Virus record (IMG/VR): IMGVR_UViG_3300037843_000143
Coordinates: 1-35,972 of that record
Strand: one strand, 5' to 3'
Origin: a virus
DNA: 35,972 nucleotides
In this document: positions 1 to 33,177 of the stretch, in pieces
How the letters are laid out: the number at the start of each line of letters is the position of its first letter
Numbering within the stretch: position 1 is the stretch's first letter
Position numbers and translations under genes: made by a program
Notes under the pieces: generated by a model
Database searches by the model: none
Seen by the model: only the letters and a program-made list of their open reading frames with translations
Told to the model about the DNA's origin: nothing

Positions 1-196
1 GTAACAGTATTTTCTACAGAATTTTGTAATTCAGGATTACCACTTCTGAAATGTTTCCACGGATTACCACCATTGAGCATAGCACGAACATCATCTCTAT
101 TGAATCGAACATAATTAGGATTTTTTCAATAAAGTCCTTTGCCCAAGTAGATTTTCCAGAAGCAACACTTCCTGTAGTTACAATAATATTACTCAC
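1..196 (-). CDS. pseT: Polynucleotide kinase (PseT/Pnkp-like), 5' part, with a one-base frameshift; runs off the window
   Basis: The N-terminus reads SNIIVTTGSVASGKSTWAKD, a Walker A P-loop aligned with the start of T4 polynucleotide kinase (GCPGSGKSTWAREF). Proposed start is GTG at 196-194, preceded by AAGGAGA nine bases upstream. After FIEK the frame leaves the family at a run of six A (plus-strand T run, 121-126). With one extra A it continues KNPNYVRFNRDDVRAMLNGG, matching the T4 kinase NRDD region. The phosphatase half lies beyond the window. Known role: 5'-kinase/3'-phosphatase that heals RNA ends before ligation; a Rnl2-type ligase lies at 33177-34220. The missing base may be a sequencing error, a true mutation or a -1 slippage site; the sequence alone cannot decide. 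Confidence 0.78.
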
Positions 197-373
197 TTTT
201 TGAAATCTCCTTTTAATAGTTTTACTAGATTCTTTATTAAAAATATAAAAATTATCTTTTGATAATTCAAGACCATATAAACCATTTGGCATTGATAAAA
301 CCCAACCAACAAATATTCCATTAACTATTAATTTTGTACCACCGAGAAGTTTTTTATATTCCATTGATGACAT
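197..373 (-). CDS. Small protein of unknown function directly upstream of the PNK start
   Basis: Starts ATG at 373, which overlaps the previous stop as TAATG and has GAGAGGG eight bases upstream. It encodes MSSMEYKKLLGGTKLIVNGI and so on, a short beta-rich-looking sequence with no recognised motif. In the sequence as given its frame has no stop and runs straight into the PNK frame, which would give PNK an extra N-terminal domain of about 59 residues. In a neighbouring frame the last codons read KLLKGDFKK then TGA, overlapping the PNK GTG. An alternative is therefore a separate gene with a small indel in the T/A runs near 237-250. Confidence 0.5.
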
Positions 374-7558: not shown

Positions 7559-7712
7559 GGTCATTCTCTCCTTCCTCAATCTTATAAATCCAAAACCATT
7601 GTTCAGGTATCATATTTGATGCCCATCCAACGAGTTCAGCATTTGGATATTGAGCCTTAATTTCTCTACATTCAACTTCATTTATAGCCTTTATTGTTCT
7701 TGAAGTTCTCAT
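7545..7712 (-). CDS. Small protein, 55 aa
   Basis: ATG at 7712 overlaps the NADAR stop as ATGA; the frame upstream is antiphase noise inside NADAR, so this internal start is preferred. MRTSRTIKAINEVECREIKA, then WASNMIPEQWFWIYKIEEGE: a compact alpha/beta sequence with a Trp-rich strand. Function unknown, but coupling to NADAR suggests co-expression. Confidence 0.62.
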   Translation of the reverse strand: MRTSRTIKAINEVECREIKAQYPNAELVGWASNMIPEQWFWIYKIEEGENDHARN

Positions 7713-8183
7713 AATGTATGCCTCAATGCATGTCTGACATTCTTTAAAACAACACCCAATAGATTTTGTCCTTGCCATTTATTTATATCAAAAGCATCAG
7801 GATTATTTTCATCTAAACCTATACCCCATATTTTATCATATGGTGATGCTTCAACAAAAATCTTATCTCCTGTATCAAGCATTTGTTTCTTTAAATTTTC
7901 ATTTTGAGAAAACTTTGAAAAACAACCATCGAACATAACAGGTTTACAAACCTTCATCCATTCATTAACAGTAAATCTTTGAACCTTTCTACCTAATCGT
8001 TTACAACACAATGGGTCATTTGATGTATGTTTAATTTTCTCGGCTACATCAAAATCTTGAAAGTAAAGTGCTTTTCTCCACATAAAATATTGTTCTGAAT
8101 TACTCCAATTCCAATTATCTCTAATAAAAGGTGCAGGATAAAAATTAGAGTAAATATCAGAATCACCCCCAAAATAAAATCAT
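7709..8183 (-). CDS. NADAR-family (YbiA-like) protein, interrupted near its start by one extra G
   Basis: NADAR proteins are N-glycosidases acting on ADP-ribosylated or related substrates; members reverse DarT-type ADP-ribosylation of guanine. Family features seen: SNFYPAPF, WNWSNSEQYFMWRKALYF, KRLGRKVQRF, LLxTG-like LDTGDKIFVEAS, YDKIWGIGL and GQNLLGVVLKNVR. The first 20 residues are in a different frame: ATG at 8183 gives MILFWG then stop, whereas four instead of five G at 8166-8170 gives MILFWGDSDIYSNFYPAPF continuously. Without that correction only the part from Met at 8083 has a start. It could be a sequencing error or an inactivated gene. Role as counter-defence is inference. Confidence 0.8.
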
Positions 8184-8558: not shown

Positions 8559-9053
8559 TTACTTTTTGTCTAGTATCTCTTTTACAAATTTATCTATATC
8601 TTGTATATGTTCTGGTTGCGAAGCAACCAGTTCCGTCTTCGGAACTATTTTTTGAAGGTTTTGATTTTTCTTTTCTTTATCTACTTCTTTATCTACTTCT
8701 ACTTCTACTTCTTGCTTGCAAGTTACTTGTAAGTTACTTGTATAATTATCTCGTATTTTCAATAGGTTAGGAATTGAGATTGTTATAATATCTTCAGAAG
8801 TTTCTACAGAAGTTTCTAAATTGTTTTCACAATATTCTAAGAAACTTTGTAACTTCTTTTGATGAAGTCCTAATAAACTTCCCCATTTCTTTTTATGATA
8901 TGATACCGAACATTTATCATTTTTTTCCATTTTTGAGGCTACAATTTCTAACAAATGTAACCATCTACCGTATCCGGCATGGCCTTCTTTTATTATTAAT
9001 TCATTTAAACCTTCAGAATTATAACAATCGGTAAAATGTTTAAACCATTTGAT
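8559..9053 (-). CDS. Phage replication-initiation-like protein (DUF4373-type N-terminus) with an apparent ATC start, 164 aa
   Basis: The frame extends upstream of the first ATG/GTG/TTG codons to IKWFKHFTDCYNSEGLNELI, then GHAGYGRWLHLLEIVASKM. This matches the MKWFKH...GxxGYGxxxxLLE start of phage replisome-organiser proteins, followed by a family-typical LLKIRDNYTSNLQVTCKQEV linker and an acidic low-complexity stretch. Where Met is expected the codon is ATC (9053-9051), six bases after a perfect GGAGG (9064-9060). No conventional start codon exists between the upstream in-frame TGA and that point. Either ATC initiates or the start was mutated. Tandem strong hairpins lie in the coding sequence at 8612-8646. 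Confidence 0.68.
   Translation of the reverse strand: MKWFKHFTDCYNSEGLNELIIKEGHAGYGRWLHLLEIVASKMEKNDKCSVSYHKKKWGSLLGLHQKKLQSFLEYCENNLETSVETSEDIITISIPNLLKIRDNYTSNLQVTCKQEVEVEVDKEVDKEKKNQNLQKIVPKTELVASQPEHIQDIDKFVKEILDKK
8612..8653 (+). terminator. Tandem GC-rich hairpins followed by T6, terminator-like on the plus strand
   Basis: Plus strand: CTGGTTGC-GAA-GCAACCAG (8612-8630) abuts AGTTCCG-TCTT-CGGAACT (8629-8646), followed by A and six T (8648-8653). This has the form of an intrinsic terminator for plus-strand RNA, yet it lies inside a minus-strand gene. It would block antisense transcription entering from the left. In minus-strand mRNA the same hairpins form within codons for VPKTELVASQP. 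Confidence 0.5.
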
Positions 9054-9199
9054 GATACACCTCCGGGAGTTTTGCTCCCTTTCGATAATAAATCACATTT
9101 CTTACATCTAGGTTTATAACCTGATAGTTTTGATTTATCATGATAAAATTCATTTTCGGTTTTGATTTCTTTACAATAGATACATTTAAAATATTTCAT
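9005..9199 (-). pseudogene. Zinc-finger N-terminal fragment of an HNH-type endonuclease, remnant
   Basis: MKYFKCIYCKEIKTENEFYH, then SGYKPRCKKCDLL: paired CxxC motifs typical of the N-terminal finger in phage HNH homing endonucleases. The HNH domain itself is absent; after KTPGG the frame only overlaps the start of the replication gene. Its ATG sits six bases after a TATAAT box, so the message would have no leader. Probably a truncated homing-endonuclease insertion. Confidence 0.5.
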
Positions 9200-9205
9200 A
9201 ATAAT

Positions 9206-9234
9206 ATTATAACATAAATATTTTTATTTGTCAA
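9206..9234 (-). promoter_or_regulatory. Perfect-consensus sigma70 promoter
   Basis: TTGACA at 9234-9229, exactly 17 bp, TATAAT at 9211-9206. Only six bases separate the -10 from ATG at 9199, so +1 is predicted at or next to the A of AUG. It drives the replication-like gene and the genes downstream to gp55. Early-type promoter. Confidence 0.82.
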
Positions 9235-10110: not shown

Positions 10111-10491
10111 TCACTTCTTCTTTTTCTTTTTAGAAGAATTAATAAATTTTTTTGTCCAATAACTTAAATAATAAGCAAATGTTTCTTGATTTTGTAATCC
10201 ATGATGAACTTCTCTATCTTCAAAAATTGAATTAATCATATGATAAATTTCATGTACCAATGTTGGTACATCATCTTTATCTTCAACCCATATAAAATAT
10301 ATTTGACCTAATTCATTACTAAATGTAGAATGAAAACCTCCCGGATTTTTCTCAATTAATTCATTTAACATATTCATAATATCAATGTTAAAATTTTTTT
10401 TATGTTTAATTAAAAAATCTAAAAGAGTACAATTCGTAACATATGTTACATTAATTCTGTAAACTTCATCGTAAAATCTTTTTATAATCAT
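10111..10491 (-). CDS. Putative zinc metallopeptidase-like protein (HExxH), 126 aa
   Basis: Contains VPTLVHEIYHMINSIF with HExxH at 80-84 and a downstream Glu in NQETFAYY (E103), fitting a gluzincin-type zinc site. The N-terminal part is a mixed alpha/beta domain and the C-terminus is SSKKKKKK. No signal peptide, so it should act in the cytoplasm. ATG at 10491 directly follows the TAG of the interrupted gene upstream, whose last codons provide GAAGGAG. Substrate unknown. Confidence 0.75.
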   Translation of the reverse strand: MIIKRFYDEVYRINVTYVTNCTLLDFLIKHKKNFNIDIMNMLNELIEKNPGGFHSTFSNELGQIYFIWVEDKDDVPTLVHEIYHMINSIFEDREVHHGLQNQETFAYYLSYWTKKFINSSKKKKKK

Positions 10492-10682
10492 CTAAGATAA
10501 GGTTACTCCTTCTGAAATTTTCTTTAATTCAGTAAGTAAATCCTCATATTTACTTGCACCCTTAACTATCCAACAATATGTTTCACTTCCTAGATAGTAA
10601 GAGCGAACTATCTAATTCCTTTACCTACTTCTTTACAGTCTTCAGACGGTGCAGATATTTTAGCTGTATTAGAATTTTTCAT
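10492..10682 (-). CDS. Interrupted small gene: two frames joined across a hairpin between matching GGA codons, possible translational bypass
   Basis: First part from ATG 10682: MKNSNTAKISAPSEDCKEVG KG, ending at GGA (10619-10617), then ATT AGA TAG stop. Second part, in another frame, begins at GGA (10590-10588): SETYCWIVKGASKYEDLLTE and so on to LS, with TAG at 10494-10492 abutting the next ATG. The 26 bases between the two GGA codons contain a perfect 8-bp hairpin. Skipping from one GGA to the other gives a continuous 53-aa protein reading EVGKG-SETYCWIVKG. This resembles T4 gene 60 bypassing (GGA to GGA over a hairpin with a stop). Alternatives are a palindromic insertion that killed the gene, or a one-base deletion. 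Its start lies six bases from a -10 box. Confidence 0.55.
10591..10614. repeat. Perfect inverted repeat in the gene interruption
   Basis: TAGATAGT (10591-10598), 8-base loop AAGAGCGA, ACTATCTA (10607-10614). In minus-strand mRNA a U-G pair extends it to 9 bp. One edge abuts the landing-type GGA (10590-10588); the other is two bases from the take-off-type GGA (10619-10617). Removing the hairpin plus one GGA (29 bases) restores the frame. Confidence 0.85.
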
Positions 10683-10688
10683 GTCCTT

Positions 10689-10717
10689 AATATACCATTT
10701 ATTTTTGGTTTTGTCAA
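10689..10717 (-). promoter_or_regulatory. Strong sigma70 promoter for the interrupted gene
   Basis: TTGACA at 10717-10712, 17-bp spacer, TATATT at 10694-10689. Six bases (AAGGAC) separate the -10 from ATG at 10682, so transcription should begin at the A of AUG, giving a leaderless message. It also serves the metallopeptidase and HAD genes. Confidence 0.75.
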
Positions 10718-10725
10718 GGTTTATT

Positions 10726-11553
10726 TTATGTTATTACTTGAGTTAAAATATTCTCTTTGTTATCTGGTCGTGGTATCATCTTCCTACCACGCAACCATGC
10801 ACCACAATCTTGACATTGAAAACGCTGATATTTCATTGTTTTGGTGAGTTGATATCCCCTTGCTTGTACCTTATGACTACCACAGTTTGTACAAACTGGT
10901 CTATCTTTATGCATATATAATCCCATATTTGGATGATTTTCAATCCACGGAAGAATACGTTTGTAAAGTTTTTCTAATTCTGTAACATCCCTCTTATTAT
11001 ATTTCTCCATATCCTTCCAAGCTTTTTCATCACCATTCATACAATCTAACCAAAGTTTATGAGTGGTATGAATTTTTCCAGCAAATCCCAATTGTTCTGT
11101 GATATGAGCAAGTTTGTTTGAAACAAATCGGAATTTCTTTTTTACTGTTTGATAAAGGTCAATTTGTTTGAATGGAGAAGGTGGAAGAAGTTTAGCAAGA
11201 AGAAATTCTCTGTTGAGAACAGGAATATCAAAACGCTTTCCATTATAATGAATAATAATATCTGCCTCATTAATTAATGCATAGATGGATTTAATAACTC
11301 CATCCTTACCGGACTTCTGGACTGAATCAAACATTACATGGTTTGAACCCATCCATTTTGCAGACCAACACATTGTATATGATGTTTCTAATAATTGACT
11401 TAATGCGATATTTTGATTCCAGATTGACCAGACTGTTGCTAAATTAGGACTTGATTCGATATCTAAAAATAATATTTTTGGTGATTTTTCTGTTACGTTT
11501 TTGTAATCTACTGTTACATCAATGTTGTTCTTTTTCTTTATTTTACTACTCAT
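10726..11553 (-). CDS. DEDD-family 3'-5' exonuclease-like protein with a C-terminal zinc ribbon, 275 aa
   Basis: RNase H-fold exonuclease of the YprB/RNase_H_2 type. ExoI motif FLDIESSP (D31, E33), ExoII IIHYNGKRFDIPVLNREF, ExoIII around YNKRDVTELEKLY. The C-terminus has CTNCGSHKVQARG ... FQCQDCGAW, a zinc ribbon for nucleic-acid binding. ATG at 11553 follows AGGAGAG. It probably trims DNA or RNA 3' ends during phage replication or host DNA breakdown; there is no linked polymerase domain, so proofreading in trans is speculative. Promoter at 11585-11612. Confidence 0.82.
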   Translation of the reverse strand: MSSKIKKKNNIDVTVDYKNVTEKSPKILFLDIESSPNLATVWSIWNQNIALSQLLETSYTMCWSAKWMGSNHVMFDSVQKSGKDGVIKSIYALINEADIIIHYNGKRFDIPVLNREFLLAKLLPPSPFKQIDLYQTVKKKFRFVSNKLAHITEQLGFAGKIHTTHKLWLDCMNGDEKAWKDMEKYNKRDVTELEKLYKRILPWIENHPNMGLYMHKDRPVCTNCGSHKVQARGYQLTKTMKYQRFQCQDCGAWLRGRKMIPRPDNKENILTQVIT

Positions 11554-13458: not shown

Positions 13459-13532
13459 CCGGTTTTCGTCTAGTGGTAGGACACATCGTTGAAGGCGATA
13501 GGGCAGAAGTTCGATTCTTTTAAGCCGGGCCA
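13459..13532 (+). tRNA. tRNA-like gene, anticodon GAA (Phe)
   Basis: Acceptor CCGGTTT/AAGCCGG, D stem GTCT/GGAC, anticodon stem ATCG/CGAT with a mismatched 27-43 pair, loop TTGAAGG, T arm AGAAG-TTCGATT-CTTTT, discriminator G, encoded CCA. The loop gives anticodon GAA, but G at 37 and 38 is unusual for a tRNA reading UUC. Cloverleaf is good; identity is less certain. Confidence 0.7.
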
Positions 13533-13536
13533 ATTT

Positions 13537-13617
13537 GGAGTGGGTGCTGGGACACTTTGGGGTCTGTAAAACGCCTGCCTTCGGGCTATTAAGGTTCGAT
13601 TCCTTACCGCTCCACCA
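13537..13617 (+). tRNA. tRNA-Tyr (GTA), class II, with a short D arm
   Basis: Acceptor GGAGTGG/CCGCTCC, anticodon loop CTGTAAA (GTA), a variable-arm hairpin GCC-TTCG-GGC as expected for bacterial tRNA-Tyr, T arm TAAGG-TTCGATT-CCTTA, encoded CCA. The D arm is reduced (only about GTG/CAC around TGGGA) and the anticodon stem has one G-G mismatch, so it may be a degenerate or unusual tRNA. Confidence 0.72.
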
Positions 13618-13633
13618 TTTAAAAGGAGATAAA

Positions 13634-13774
13634 ATGAGTGATTCAGTTGGTGTAACTGGTAAAGAAACTATTGAAAGGTGTCAAGATTGTAATTCTTATA
13701 GAAAACCTAAATGTAAGATTACTAAAAATTTTACATCACGAAAAAATAGTTGTAAGGCTTTTAAAAAGAAATAA
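13634..13774 (+). CDS. Tiny zinc-binding protein inside the tRNA cluster, 46 aa
   Basis: ATG at 13634 follows AAAGGAGATAAA. MSDSVGVTGKETIERC then CQDCNSYRKPKC and SCKAFKKK: four Cys in a CxxC...C...C pattern and a basic tail, compatible with a small nucleic-acid-binding finger. The in-frame sequence upstream is tRNA-Tyr and is not coding. It lies between two tRNAs, so it would be made from the tRNA precursor transcript. Confidence 0.68.
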   Translation: MSDSVGVTGKETIERCQDCNSYRKPKCKITKNFTSRKNSCKAFKKK

Positions 13775-13779
13775 TATAA

Positions 13780-13861
13780 CGGGGTGTAGCTGATGAAAAG
13801 TGGTTTACAGACTCGGCCTGGAACCGAGAGTATGCAGGTTCGACACCTGCCTCCCCGACCA
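13780..13861 (+). tRNA. tRNA-like gene, anticodon TGG (Pro)
   Basis: Acceptor CGGGGTG pairs with CTCCCCG except one T-T mismatch; anticodon stem CTCGG/CCGAG with loop CCTGGAA; T arm GCAGG-TTCGACA-CCTGC; discriminator A and encoded CCA. C1-G72 and A73 suit tRNA-Pro. Oddities are C instead of T at position 33 and a long D loop of about 15 bases. Confidence 0.62.
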
Positions 13862-13866
13862 TTTTT

Positions 13867-13943
13867 GGGAGAGTCATTTCAATTGGTAAGATGCTGGTCT
13901 CCAAAACCATGCGATTAAGGTTCGAATCCTTATTCTCCCGCCA
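13867..13943 (+). tRNA. tRNA-Trp (CCA)
   Basis: Acceptor GGGAGAG/TTCTCCC, anticodon loop CTCCAAA, T arm TAAGG-TTCGAAT-CCTTA, discriminator G, encoded CCA. Apart from one mismatch in the anticodon stem it is a standard tRNA-Trp. A tRNA reading UGG is the one most likely to misread UGA. Confidence 0.88.
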
Positions 13944-13944
13944 T

Positions 13945-14021
13945 ACGCCTATAGCTCAGTCTGGTAGAGCAAACGCTTGATAAGCGTTAGGTCATAGGTT
14001 CAAATCCTATTAGGCGTACCA
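13945..14021 (+). tRNA. tRNA-Ile (GAT)
   Basis: Acceptor ACGCCTA/TAGGCGT, D arm with AGCTCAGTCTGG, anticodon stem AACGC/GCGTT with loop TTGATAA, T arm ATAGG-TTCAAAT-CCTAT, A73 and encoded CCA. Canonical in all arms; separated from tRNA-Trp by one base. Confidence 0.93.
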
Positions 14022-14032
14022 AAATATATAGT

Positions 14033-14108
14033 GCCGATTTAGCTCAGTTGGTAGAGCAATTGACCTGTAATCAATAGGTCGTAGGTTCGAATCCTACAGT
14101 CGGCTCCA
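14033..14108 (+). tRNA. tRNA-Thr (TGT)
   Basis: Acceptor GCCGATT/AGTCGGC, D arm TAGCTCAGTTGGTAGAGC, anticodon stem ATTGA/TCAAT with loop CCTGTAA, T arm GTAGG-TTCGAAT-CCTAC, T73, encoded CCA. Canonical. Reads ACA, a codon favoured in this AT-rich genome. Confidence 0.94.
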
Positions 14109-14110
14109 AT

Positions 14111-14185
14111 GTGGGGTTAGCCCAATGGTTAAGGCGTGGAGTTGTGGCCTCCAATATTACGGTTCGACTCCGTAACCTCACCCCA
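14111..14185 (+). tRNA. tRNA-His (GTG)
   Basis: Acceptor GTGGGGT/ACCTCAC with one G-T pair, D arm GCCCAATGGTTAAGGC, anticodon stem TGGAG/CTCCA with loop TTGTGGC, T arm ACGG-TTCGACT-CCGT, C73 and encoded CCA. The base before position 1 is T, so the G(-1) of histidine tRNAs is not encoded in the usual form. Confidence 0.9.
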
Positions 14186-14204
14186 AAATATAATAGGAGT
14201 TTGA

Positions 14205-14336
14205 ATGGCTAAAAAATTTTCTAAAGCCAAAATTAATTATAAAAAACATGAAAGAAAAGAACTTGCAAAACAAGTTCGTAGAGATAATAAGGAAGGGTGT
14301 AAGAGAGTGGTTTATTCCTCTAGTCTTGAAAACTAG
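14205..14336 (+). CDS. Tiny basic protein running into the tRNA-Ser gene, 43 aa
   Basis: ATG at 14205 follows TAGGAG. MAKKFSKAKINYKKHERKEL then AKQVRRDNKEG: very basic, 13 Lys and 4 Arg. From GGAAGGG onward it reads through tRNA-Ser sequence to a TAG in the anticodon stem (14334-14336). The strong ribosome site argues that at least the N-terminal 29 codons are translated. Overlap of a CDS with a tRNA gene is unusual. Confidence 0.5.
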   Translation: MAKKFSKAKINYKKHERKELAKQVRRDNKEGCKRVVYSSSLEN

Positions 14337-14388
14337 CGTGTCGCCCTCAGAAGGCGCACCGTGGGTTCGAATCCCACCCCTTCCTCCA
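14291..14388 (+). tRNA. tRNA-Ser (TGA), class II
   Basis: Acceptor GGAAGGG/CCCTTCC, anticodon stem CTAGT/ACTAG with loop CTTGAAA (TGA), long variable arm containing CGCCCTCAGAAGGCG, T arm GTGGG-TTCGAAT-CCCAC, T73 and encoded CCA. Typical tRNA-Ser reading UCA. Its 5' half overlaps the end of a small basic ORF. Confidence 0.92.
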
Positions 14389-17290: not shown

Positions 17291-17581
17291 ATGTATTGTA
17301 TGGCATTAGATGTTTTAAAAGATGAAAATGGTAAGCACAGTATCGGAAGATATTTAACAGTATTAGCAGCTTTGGTTTTAAGTTATGGTTTTGTTGAAGA
17401 ATCAATAGCAAGAAATTTGGATTGGAAAGATTTTGTGGCATATGCACTCGCTATGGTTATGACATATTCTACTGCAAAAGCTGTTGAACTTATTAGAGCA
17501 TTGAAGGGTACAGATAGAAATGGTAAAGATGATATTCCATTAGAAAAAGCATTGGAAGATAAACAGGAAGATAAACAATAA
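17291..17581 (+). CDS. Small membrane protein, possible holin, 96 aa
   Basis: Two hydrophobic segments: YLTVLAALVLSYGFV (about 21-35) and FVAYALAMVMTYSTAKAV (about 48-65), then a charged tail ending EDKQEDKQ. Size, two helices and charged C-terminus, next to DUF5675 under a late promoter, suggest a holin-like role, which is inference. ATG at 17291 or 17300; AGGAGA precedes both. Alternative: another late membrane protein. Confidence 0.65.
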   Translation: MYCMALDVLKDENGKHSIGRYLTVLAALVLSYGFVEESIARNLDWKDFVAYALAMVMTYSTAKAVELIRALKGTDRNGKDDIPLEKALEDKQEDKQ

Positions 17582-27255: not shown

Positions 27256-27878
27256 TATTTCCTCACAAATATTGCATTAAGTTTATCATTAAAATCTAAT
27301 ATATATTTTTGTTGTAGAAAATCTTTTATTCTATTAAGACCAACATGATTATGTTCAACACAAATTACTTTTGGTATTTTTCTGTCAAAATTAATTCCTT
27401 CTAAAGCTTCTATTTCATGACCTTCAATATCCAAAACAAATAAATCAATATCATTATCACCAAAAAGGGCATCATATGTATTTGTATGACAAGTGGTTAT
27501 TGAAGGATTCCCATACATTCTTTTAACAGCTTCGTCAACATTCATCCCATTCATTCCACCATTATCACCATTATAATTATAAATATTTACTTCTTTATTA
27601 TTTGTATTAGATAAAGCAACAAATAAATTTGTACTATGCGGTCTATTTTTAACTAATTTATCATAATTTATTTTTGATGCTTCGACATTGCAAACTAACC
27701 ATCCTATTTCTTCAAATACTAAACAAGTAGGTATGAATAATCCATCATTAGCTCCACATTCAATAGCCTTACCTTCTTTTTGATTTGTAAAATATCTATC
27801 ATACAATATTTTATCAATTGGCTCATTTGAACCACCTCTTGCTCCTTCTGTTAATAAACTTTGACCATAAAATTTCAT
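27255..27878 (-). CDS. FkbM-family methyltransferase, 207 aa
   Basis: KAIECGANDGLFIPTCLVFE (motif I), GWLVCNVEAS, VALSNTNNKEVNIYNYNGDN, TYDALFGDNDIDLFVLDIEG and HEIEALEGINF are the FkbM signature blocks, the last being the DLLKIDVEGxExxxLxG motif. FkbM enzymes O-methylate sugars and other hydroxyls. Start at 27878, two bases downstream of the GT2 stop. Confidence 0.88.
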   Translation of the reverse strand: MKFYGQSLLTEGARGGSNEPIDKILYDRYFTNQKEGKAIECGANDGLFIPTCLVFEEIGWLVCNVEASKINYDKLVKNRPHSTNLFVALSNTNNKEVNIYNYNGDNGGMNGMNVDEAVKRMYGNPSITTCHTNTYDALFGDNDIDLFVLDIEGHEIEALEGINFDRKIPKVICVEHNHVGLNRIKDFLQQKYILDFNDKLNAIFVRK

Positions 27879-32141: not shown

Positions 32142-32666
32142 TTAATCTTCCTCTAAATGAAGGTCAATTCCCATCATTTTTTCTATTGATTTTCTAGTAT
32201 CATTACTAATTTTTATAATAGGTCTATGCGCCAAATACCATTTTCTTGTATTCTCTTTATAATTAGTAAAGTTTGCATGACCCGTTGCGATACTAGCTCC
32301 ATACCAATCACAAATCATCTCTTTCCAATATTTTTCATCCATTGGAATAAGTTTAGTAATCCCACAGTCTTCTAATAAAATCCAAAATTGATAATGGTGT
32401 TTTTGTGTTTTTTGATGAAACAACCATGCTTTATCAAAATTAGGGTCACAGGTTTTACTAGGTTTTGAATAACCTGTTTCGCTTTTACCTTTTATTTCAT
32501 GATTTTTACCATAAAAATAATTAGCATATGCCCAAAATGGAAAAGGTCTTAGTTTATGCATATCATGAAAAATTCCACGCCAATATAATCCTTCTTTAAA
32601 ACAAAAAATACCCACATACCATTTATGTTTAACAATATACCAGAAATATTTAAAATATTTTTTCAT
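32142..32666 (-). CDS. DUF5662 family protein, 174 aa
   Basis: YIVKHKWYVGIFCFKEGLYW, GIFHDMHKLRPFPFWAYANY, AWLFHQKTQKHHYQFWILLE, then PMDEKYWKEMICDWYGAS. The His/Asp arrangement (HD, H...HHxxHxW, EMxxDW) is that of DUF5662, an uncharacterised phage/bacterial family with a likely metal site. ATG at 32666 after GAAGGA located inside the broken endonuclease. Confidence 0.82.
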   Translation of the reverse strand: MKKYFKYFWYIVKHKWYVGIFCFKEGLYWRGIFHDMHKLRPFPFWAYANYFYGKNHEIKGKSETGYSKPSKTCDPNFDKAWLFHQKTQKHHYQFWILLEDCGITKLIPMDEKYWKEMICDWYGASIATGHANFTNYKENTRKWYLAHRPIIKISNDTRKSIEKMMGIDLHLEED

Positions 32667-33177
32667 TTTTCCTTCTTTCTTTTATTTGATAATAACTAAT
32701 AAGTGATTGTGTAACATTATATTTTTTAGCTAAAACATATTGATTTTCATTACTATTTTTAATTTCCTCAATTTCTTTGTTTGTTAATTTAGATTTTCTT
32801 CCGCAATTTTCTCTCCATTTCTTATTATGGCTTATTTTATTTATTTTTATACAATGTTCTAATTGTAATTTTGTTCTTGGTTTAGTATGTCAATAACCAA
32901 AACTACCATGACCACCAAAATTTAAATTATATACTTTAGAACTTAATAAAAAAGATTCACAAACAATTTCTCTCTCTTTTTCACGAATATAATTTTCATC
33001 TTCTGATAATAAAATAATTTTTCTTTCAAAATTATTTAATCCATATTTTTTAATTGCTTGTTTTATTAATTTACCAGAACCATAATAATCACCTAATGAT
33101 AAAATTTTAGAACCTTTAATTCCTACATATATTTTACCATTTATTAAATTTTTAATTTTATATAATAAATAATACAT
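32650..33177 (-). pseudogene. GIY-YIG homing endonuclease (Seg-like) split by an in-frame TGA
   Basis: Residues 1-95 contain YYLLYKI...GKIYVGIKGS (GIY-YIG), YGSGKLIKQAIKKYGLNNFE and a Glu in IREKEREIVCE. At 32892-32890 a TGA follows FGGHGSFGY. The same frame then stays open for 79 codons: HTKPRTKLQL, ENCGRKSKLTNKEIEEIKNS and NQYVLAKKYNVTQSLISYYQ, a DNA-binding helix-turn-helix tail. Homologues usually have a basic residue before HT, so CGA to TGA is a likely origin. Inserted directly after the RNA ligase gene (TAATG overlap). Either inactivated or expressed as a catalytic fragment; UGA readthrough is possible but unproven. Confidence 0.8.

Follow-up and report, generated by a model that had tools for sequence, protein, structure and literature searches.

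Organization of the locus

The DNA analyzed here is a 35,972-nucleotide stretch of viral sequence (IMG/VR record IMGVR_UViG_3300037843_000143), hereafter referred to as the window, and all the features of the locus lie on its minus strand. On the upstream side is a gene for a DNA polymerase exonuclease subunit (10726-11553; phrog_403, E 2.2e-90), and on the downstream side a gene of the phrog_1365 family (10111-10491; E 4.9e-13), whose product has a HEIYH motif and is of unknown function. Two small open frames are found between them. ORF1 (10608-10682) starts at ATG 10682-10680 and runs for 24 codons (MKNSNTAKISAPSEDCKEVGKGIR) up to TAG 10610-10608. ORF2 (10492-10611) is open from ATA 10611 to TAG 10494-10492, a stop codon that abuts the ATG of the phrog_1365 gene at 10491. 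Its 39 codons, which read IVRSYYL followed by GSETYCWIVKGASKYEDLLTELKKISEGVTLS, include no ATG, GTG or TTG.

ORF1 and ORF2 occupy different frames, both of which run into a stop codon within or beside a short gap. A GGA codon of ORF1 (10619-10617) lies two codons (ATT AGA) ahead of the TAG, and a second GGA, in the ORF2 frame (10590-10588), is found 26 nt past the first. The 26 nt that separate them (10591-10616) hold a hairpin. The first-pass annotation of this DNA had described an ORF from ATG 10682 that ends at TAG soon after a GGA, a continuation in another frame with a second GGA 26 nt on, a perfect hairpin of 8 bp (9 with a U-G pair) filling the gap, and a second frame whose TAG abuts the next ATG; all these elements are present at the coordinates given here, and joining the halves at GGA does yield a protein of 53 residues. 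The GAAGGAG that it assigned to the downstream gene exists as well, but stands about 14 nt before the ATG of that gene.

Two further elements were considered. One is AAAGGA (10617-10622), a hexamer resembling a Shine-Dalgarno (SD) sequence that includes the first GGA and lies 5 nt before ATA 10611-10609; the latter overlaps the stop codon of ORF1 as ATAG, and is a candidate near-cognate start for ORF2. The other is a strong sigma-70-like promoter, TTGACA-N17-TATATT (10689-10717), which has 11 of 12 matches and a TG ahead of the second hexamer. Only 6 nt separate the end of its -10 box from ATG 10682; transcription would thus begin at the AUG or close to it, and ORF1 may be leaderless. A perfect TTGACA-N17-TATAAT is also found at 9199-9234 on the same strand, upstream of a zinc-ribbon ORF whose ATG (9199) follows the -10 box at a distance of 6 nt. 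The shared spacing at 9199 and 10682 possibly denotes leaderless early genes.

Codon usage of the two halves and of the gap

Codon scores were calculated with the frequencies observed in the long ORFs of the window as reference. Over 23 codons, ORF1 scored +9.3 bits; of 474 open stretches read in a wrong frame, 2 reached this value. The final 32 codons of ORF2 scored +11.2 bits, which none of 242 such stretches matched. In the gap, the seven codons of the ORF2 frame that precede the second GGA (ATA GTT CGC TCT TAC TAT CTA) scored -7.6 bits. A score this low was found in 0.03% of genic seven-codon windows, or 0.5% on synonymous choice alone, probabilities that stand without search correction as the gap frame and the matching codon were picked after seeing the sequence. 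Hence, both halves are coding-like and the gap between them is not. This pattern favors an insert over a simple one-base indel, seven codons being limited evidence.

Structure prediction was considered as support for a coding gap, and was dropped. A single-sequence AlphaFold2 model of the 39 residues of ORF2 gave a strand-strand-helix arrangement with a pLDDT of 80.5 (90 in the first block), and a control made from the other frame, with TAG read as Gln, gave one long helix with a pLDDT of 88.5; model and control do not discriminate between the readings. Comparison of the ORF2 model with PDB folds produced no match.

The hairpin and its background frequency

The hairpin (TAGATAGT-TCGCTCTT-ACTATCTA; 10614-10591) has eight perfect pairs and one U-G pair. 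It begins 2 nt past the first GGA, so that this codon, the candidate takeoff site of a bypass, lies outside the structure. In isolation the hairpin is more stable than shuffled sequences (-8.2 kcal/mol, z -2.7). In contexts of 51 and 66 nt, however, the folding energy is ordinary when compared with shuffles (z -0.75 and -0.56, respectively).

Perfect stems of at least 8 bp are common in this DNA: with loops of 3-10, the window contains 21, many of them within ordinary ORFs, compared with 12-17 in five sequences simulated by a first-order model. The probability of a codon match is 0.035 per pair, likewise without correction for search. When the window was scanned mechanically for an ORF with a matching codon at most four codons from its stop, an 8-bp hairpin in a gap of 15-60 nt and an open frame past the landing codon, five sites carried this signature of matching codon, hairpin and stop. 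Because the signature recurs and a hairpin of this size is common, the signature alone is no evidence of any mechanism. What distinguishes this site from the others is the codon usage of both halves.

The hairpin sequence occurs once in the window, even when up to three mismatches are allowed, and no copy was found in viral contigs. On these searches, the idea that the hairpin is a mobile element was rejected. When 84,980 genomes were scanned for the exact 24 nt, one match was returned, in a contig of the same phage. The hairpin is not followed by a T tract and is thus not a terminator, and no relevant Rfam family matched.

The break in a second assembly

The contig with the single hairpin match is binned in a Methanoregulaceae metagenome-assembled genome (MAG) from the SPRUCE peatland site. 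It is 99.96% identical to the window over 8,001 nt, and the region of the small gene is identical in bases. Further contigs of the MAG match additional parts of the window (99.6-99.97% identity), and the phage is spread over several contigs (L179, L180, L181, L184 and L185 of MAG G052). As the two assemblies differ by SNPs and by a few homopolymer indels, they represent separate consensus sequences. Promoters of the bacterial type are found in the window; an error in the binning of the MAG is therefore plausible, and the host is uncertain.

The presence of the same break in a separate assembly makes a one-off sequencing error unlikely. Errors in homopolymers or in low-quality stretches could in principle split a gene, and homopolymer indels do occur between the assemblies, near position 126 in a polynucleotide kinase gene and as a deletion at 17325. 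At the break, however, there is no homopolymer, and the small-gene region is the same in both assemblies. We thus assign very little probability to this explanation. Regarding the two indels themselves, the polynucleotide kinase gene (phrog_505; 1-373, minus strand) is frameshifted in the window at a six-base homopolymer near 121-126, and the second assembly is one base longer there and has no frameshift. At 17325 the second assembly (contig L179) is one base short, which frameshifts an ORF that is intact in the window (17291-17581).

Search for relatives

No relative of the joined protein or of either half was found in phage records, in Pfam, PHROGs, NCBIfam or PDB, or in the records behind the loci that were fetched, and a peptide-pattern search of viral contigs did not detect any. 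Among 232 genomes of the order to which the MAG belongs, the only relative was the same phage. Searches based on the neighbors (the exonuclease, UvsW and the phrog_1365 protein) retrieved only distant phages, which do not have the small gene. Absence of relatives is as expected for a small gene that evolves fast.

Comparison with known bypass systems

The first-pass annotation proposed a programmed translational bypass: ribosomes would take off from GGA 10619, pass over 26 nt and resume on GGA 10590, thus making a protein of 53 residues in the manner of T4 gene 60 or of mitochondrial byps. Resemblance to gene 60 is real in several respects, since both have GGA as takeoff and landing codon, a UAG in the gap, a hairpin near the takeoff site and two ORFs out of frame, and the window has a T4-like neighborhood, with homologues of UvsW, gp46 and gp47. 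In gene 60, however, the takeoff GGA is placed directly before the UAG. Bypass there also uses an SD-like element ahead of the landing codon, stem-loops both at the takeoff site and 5' of it, and a signal in the nascent peptide, the key portion of which is 25-30 residues away from the P site (PMC5009743; PMC11194080). Here the gap has 26 nt instead of 50, and the stop comes two codons after the takeoff codon instead of next to it. The codon that follows GGA is ATT, neither a stop nor a rare codon: at 47 per thousand, it is about the commonest of the codons checked in this phage. Only 22 codons lead up to the takeoff site, too few for a nascent-peptide signal of the gene 60 type, and no KKYK signal 25-30 residues before the P site is found in ORF1. 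The landing codon is preceded by CTTACTATCTA, which contains no SD-like element. Moreover, gene 60 encodes a topoisomerase subunit, to which the gene described here is unrelated.

The byps of Magnusiomyces capitatus mitochondria are also short out-of-frame inserts with a hairpin and matching codons, and require less context. They are, however, present in many copies, the codon in their A site is an unused one, and mitochondrial decoding is relaxed (PMC5009743). In contrast, the insert described here is single, its A-site codon is common, and the gene belongs to a phage whose host is a bacterium or archaeon. A hop of similar length, 29 nt, has been reported in an adhesin gene of Prevotella loescheii, a case that was never followed up (PMC5009743).

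Two other ideas were discarded. A -1 slip at AGA TAG is rejected because re-pairing of tRNA-Arg on TAG is impossible. A suppressor tRNA for TAG or TGA is likewise rejected, as there is none among the six tRNAs of the window. The genes for these tRNAs (Phe, Trp, Ile, Thr, His and Ser, as detected by ARAGORN) are clustered at 13459-14388.

In favor of a bypass are the matching GGA codons, the stop in the gap, the perfect 8-bp hairpin, and the fact that two out-of-frame halves with gene-like codon usage flank a gap that lacks it, an arrangement kept in two assemblies. Against it, most of the gene 60 signals are missing, shuffled sequences fold as well as the longer context, and a codon match with a hairpin is expected by chance at several places, in keeping with the common size of the hairpin and with the recurrence of the signature at unrelated sites. 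We consider a bypass at this locus highly improbable, and it is equally doubtful that a 26-nt hop between GGA codons would work where two requirements of gene 60, a stop next to the takeoff codon and a nascent-peptide signal, are missing. Hence, what stands of the first-pass annotation is its description (coding-like halves out of frame, a gap with a hairpin that is not coding-like, matching GGA codons, and a break that we find in both assemblies); the programmed bypass is not supported.

Explanations for the broken frame

The explanation that we favor, with about an even chance of being correct, is that a small phage gene has been disrupted by a short palindromic insertion or by an indel. The weights that we attach to this and to the other explanations are matters of judgement, not computed posteriors. 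Disruption had been offered by the first-pass annotation as the alternative to its own proposal, and it fits better than a bypass, given that the gene 60 signals are mostly absent. It is also the commonest cause of coding-like halves that are out of frame, and other interrupted genes are found in this phage in both assemblies. As in any ordinary disrupted phage gene, the out-of-frame halves have gene-like codon usage and no product is predicted; unlike in the ordinary case, the break holds a perfect hairpin with a GGA on each side.

Several observations are uncomfortable for disruption. Neither half is visibly decayed and the codon usage of ORF2 is good, which means that the gene was broken recently or that its product continues to be made. 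Disruption leaves to chance the good ribosome-binding-site spacing of AAAGGA-N5-AUA, and the hairpin, the same phage excepted, is not repeated elsewhere. No uninterrupted homologue was found, and the insertion is accordingly putative.

Under disruption, the locus would have contained a single early gene of about 53-63 codons, split by a short event at approximately 10616-10588. The event was most likely a palindromic insertion of 26-29 nt that left a GGA on each side, and less likely a simple indel. Transcription would probably proceed from the promoter at 10717-10689. Translation would run from AUG 10682 to UAG 10610, yielding a product of 24 residues, and the second half would be made rarely or never, with the presumable loss of the full-length product. 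The phrog_1365 gene would be translated from its own start at 10491.

Two other genes of this phage have in-frame UGA codons, present in both assemblies. An ORF for a GIY-YIG homing endonuclease (32653-33177, minus strand) stops at UGA 32890-32892, beyond which the frame continues without a stop for a further 79 codons that give weak HTH-like matches. The NADAR gene (PF08719, E 5e-45; 7709-8179, minus strand) begins ATG AAA TGA TTT TAT, with UGA as its third codon.

A different view, which we regard as rather unlikely, is that ORF1 is a short leader ORF, that the hairpin is regulatory or accidental, and that ORF2 is either a frame open by chance or a remnant that is not translated, the phrog_1365 protein being the functional product. 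The strong promoter with its -10 box 6 nt before the ATG agrees with a leader, and so do the lack of a standard start codon in ORF2, the failure to find homologues of either half and the absence of a T tract, which indicates that the hairpin is not a terminator. The codon score of ORF2, unmatched in 242 wrong-frame stretches, is difficult to accommodate if ORF2 is a chance frame, as is the exact abutment of its stop on the next start; nor does any Rfam family match the region.

The existence of an alternative start codon must also be weighed. ORF1 and ORF2 might be two coupled ORFs, the first of 24 codons and the second of 39, with ORF2 beginning (fM)VRSYYLGSETYCW... at AUA 10611 and translated at low level by termination-reinitiation. 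This possibility, which the first-pass annotation did not list, also fits the data. AAAGGA lies 5 nt upstream of the AUA, the same spacing as in the AAAGGA-N5-ATG that precedes a 207-codon gene at 27878, and of the ATA codons taken at random in the window, just about 5% have a correctly placed SD-like 4-mer. Translational coupling of genes whose stop and start codons overlap has been amply documented (PMC6728339): coupled pairs of the AUGA type have the same 4-nt overlap, with the SD inside the upstream ORF, and differ in that their start is AUG instead of AUA.

The phage contains a second suspect. A replication-initiation-like ORF (8559-9092, minus strand) has no ATG, GTG or TTG in either assembly, position 1 of the profile aligns with ATC 9053, and GGAGG is found 6 nt ahead of this codon, so an AUC start is possible. 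Together, the suspected starts at 10611 and 9053 make near-cognate initiation a serious rival. However, initiation at AUA is very inefficient in bacteria, the AUA sits within the stem of the hairpin, the first seven codons of the resulting ORF are atypical of this phage, and the parallel at ATC 9053 relies on one HMM alignment with an E value of 0.002. On balance, we consider it unlikely that ORF2 is translated from the AUA.

Were the bypass true, it would join a very short list of bypasses in phage or cellular genes, and it would mean that not all the signals of gene 60 are required. If the small gene is simply a broken or an overlapping one, the locus matters little. Its value would then be that of a calibrated example of how often matching codon, hairpin and stop come together by chance in AT-rich phage DNA. 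Better suited to testing are the two suspected near-cognate starts, at this locus and at 9053.
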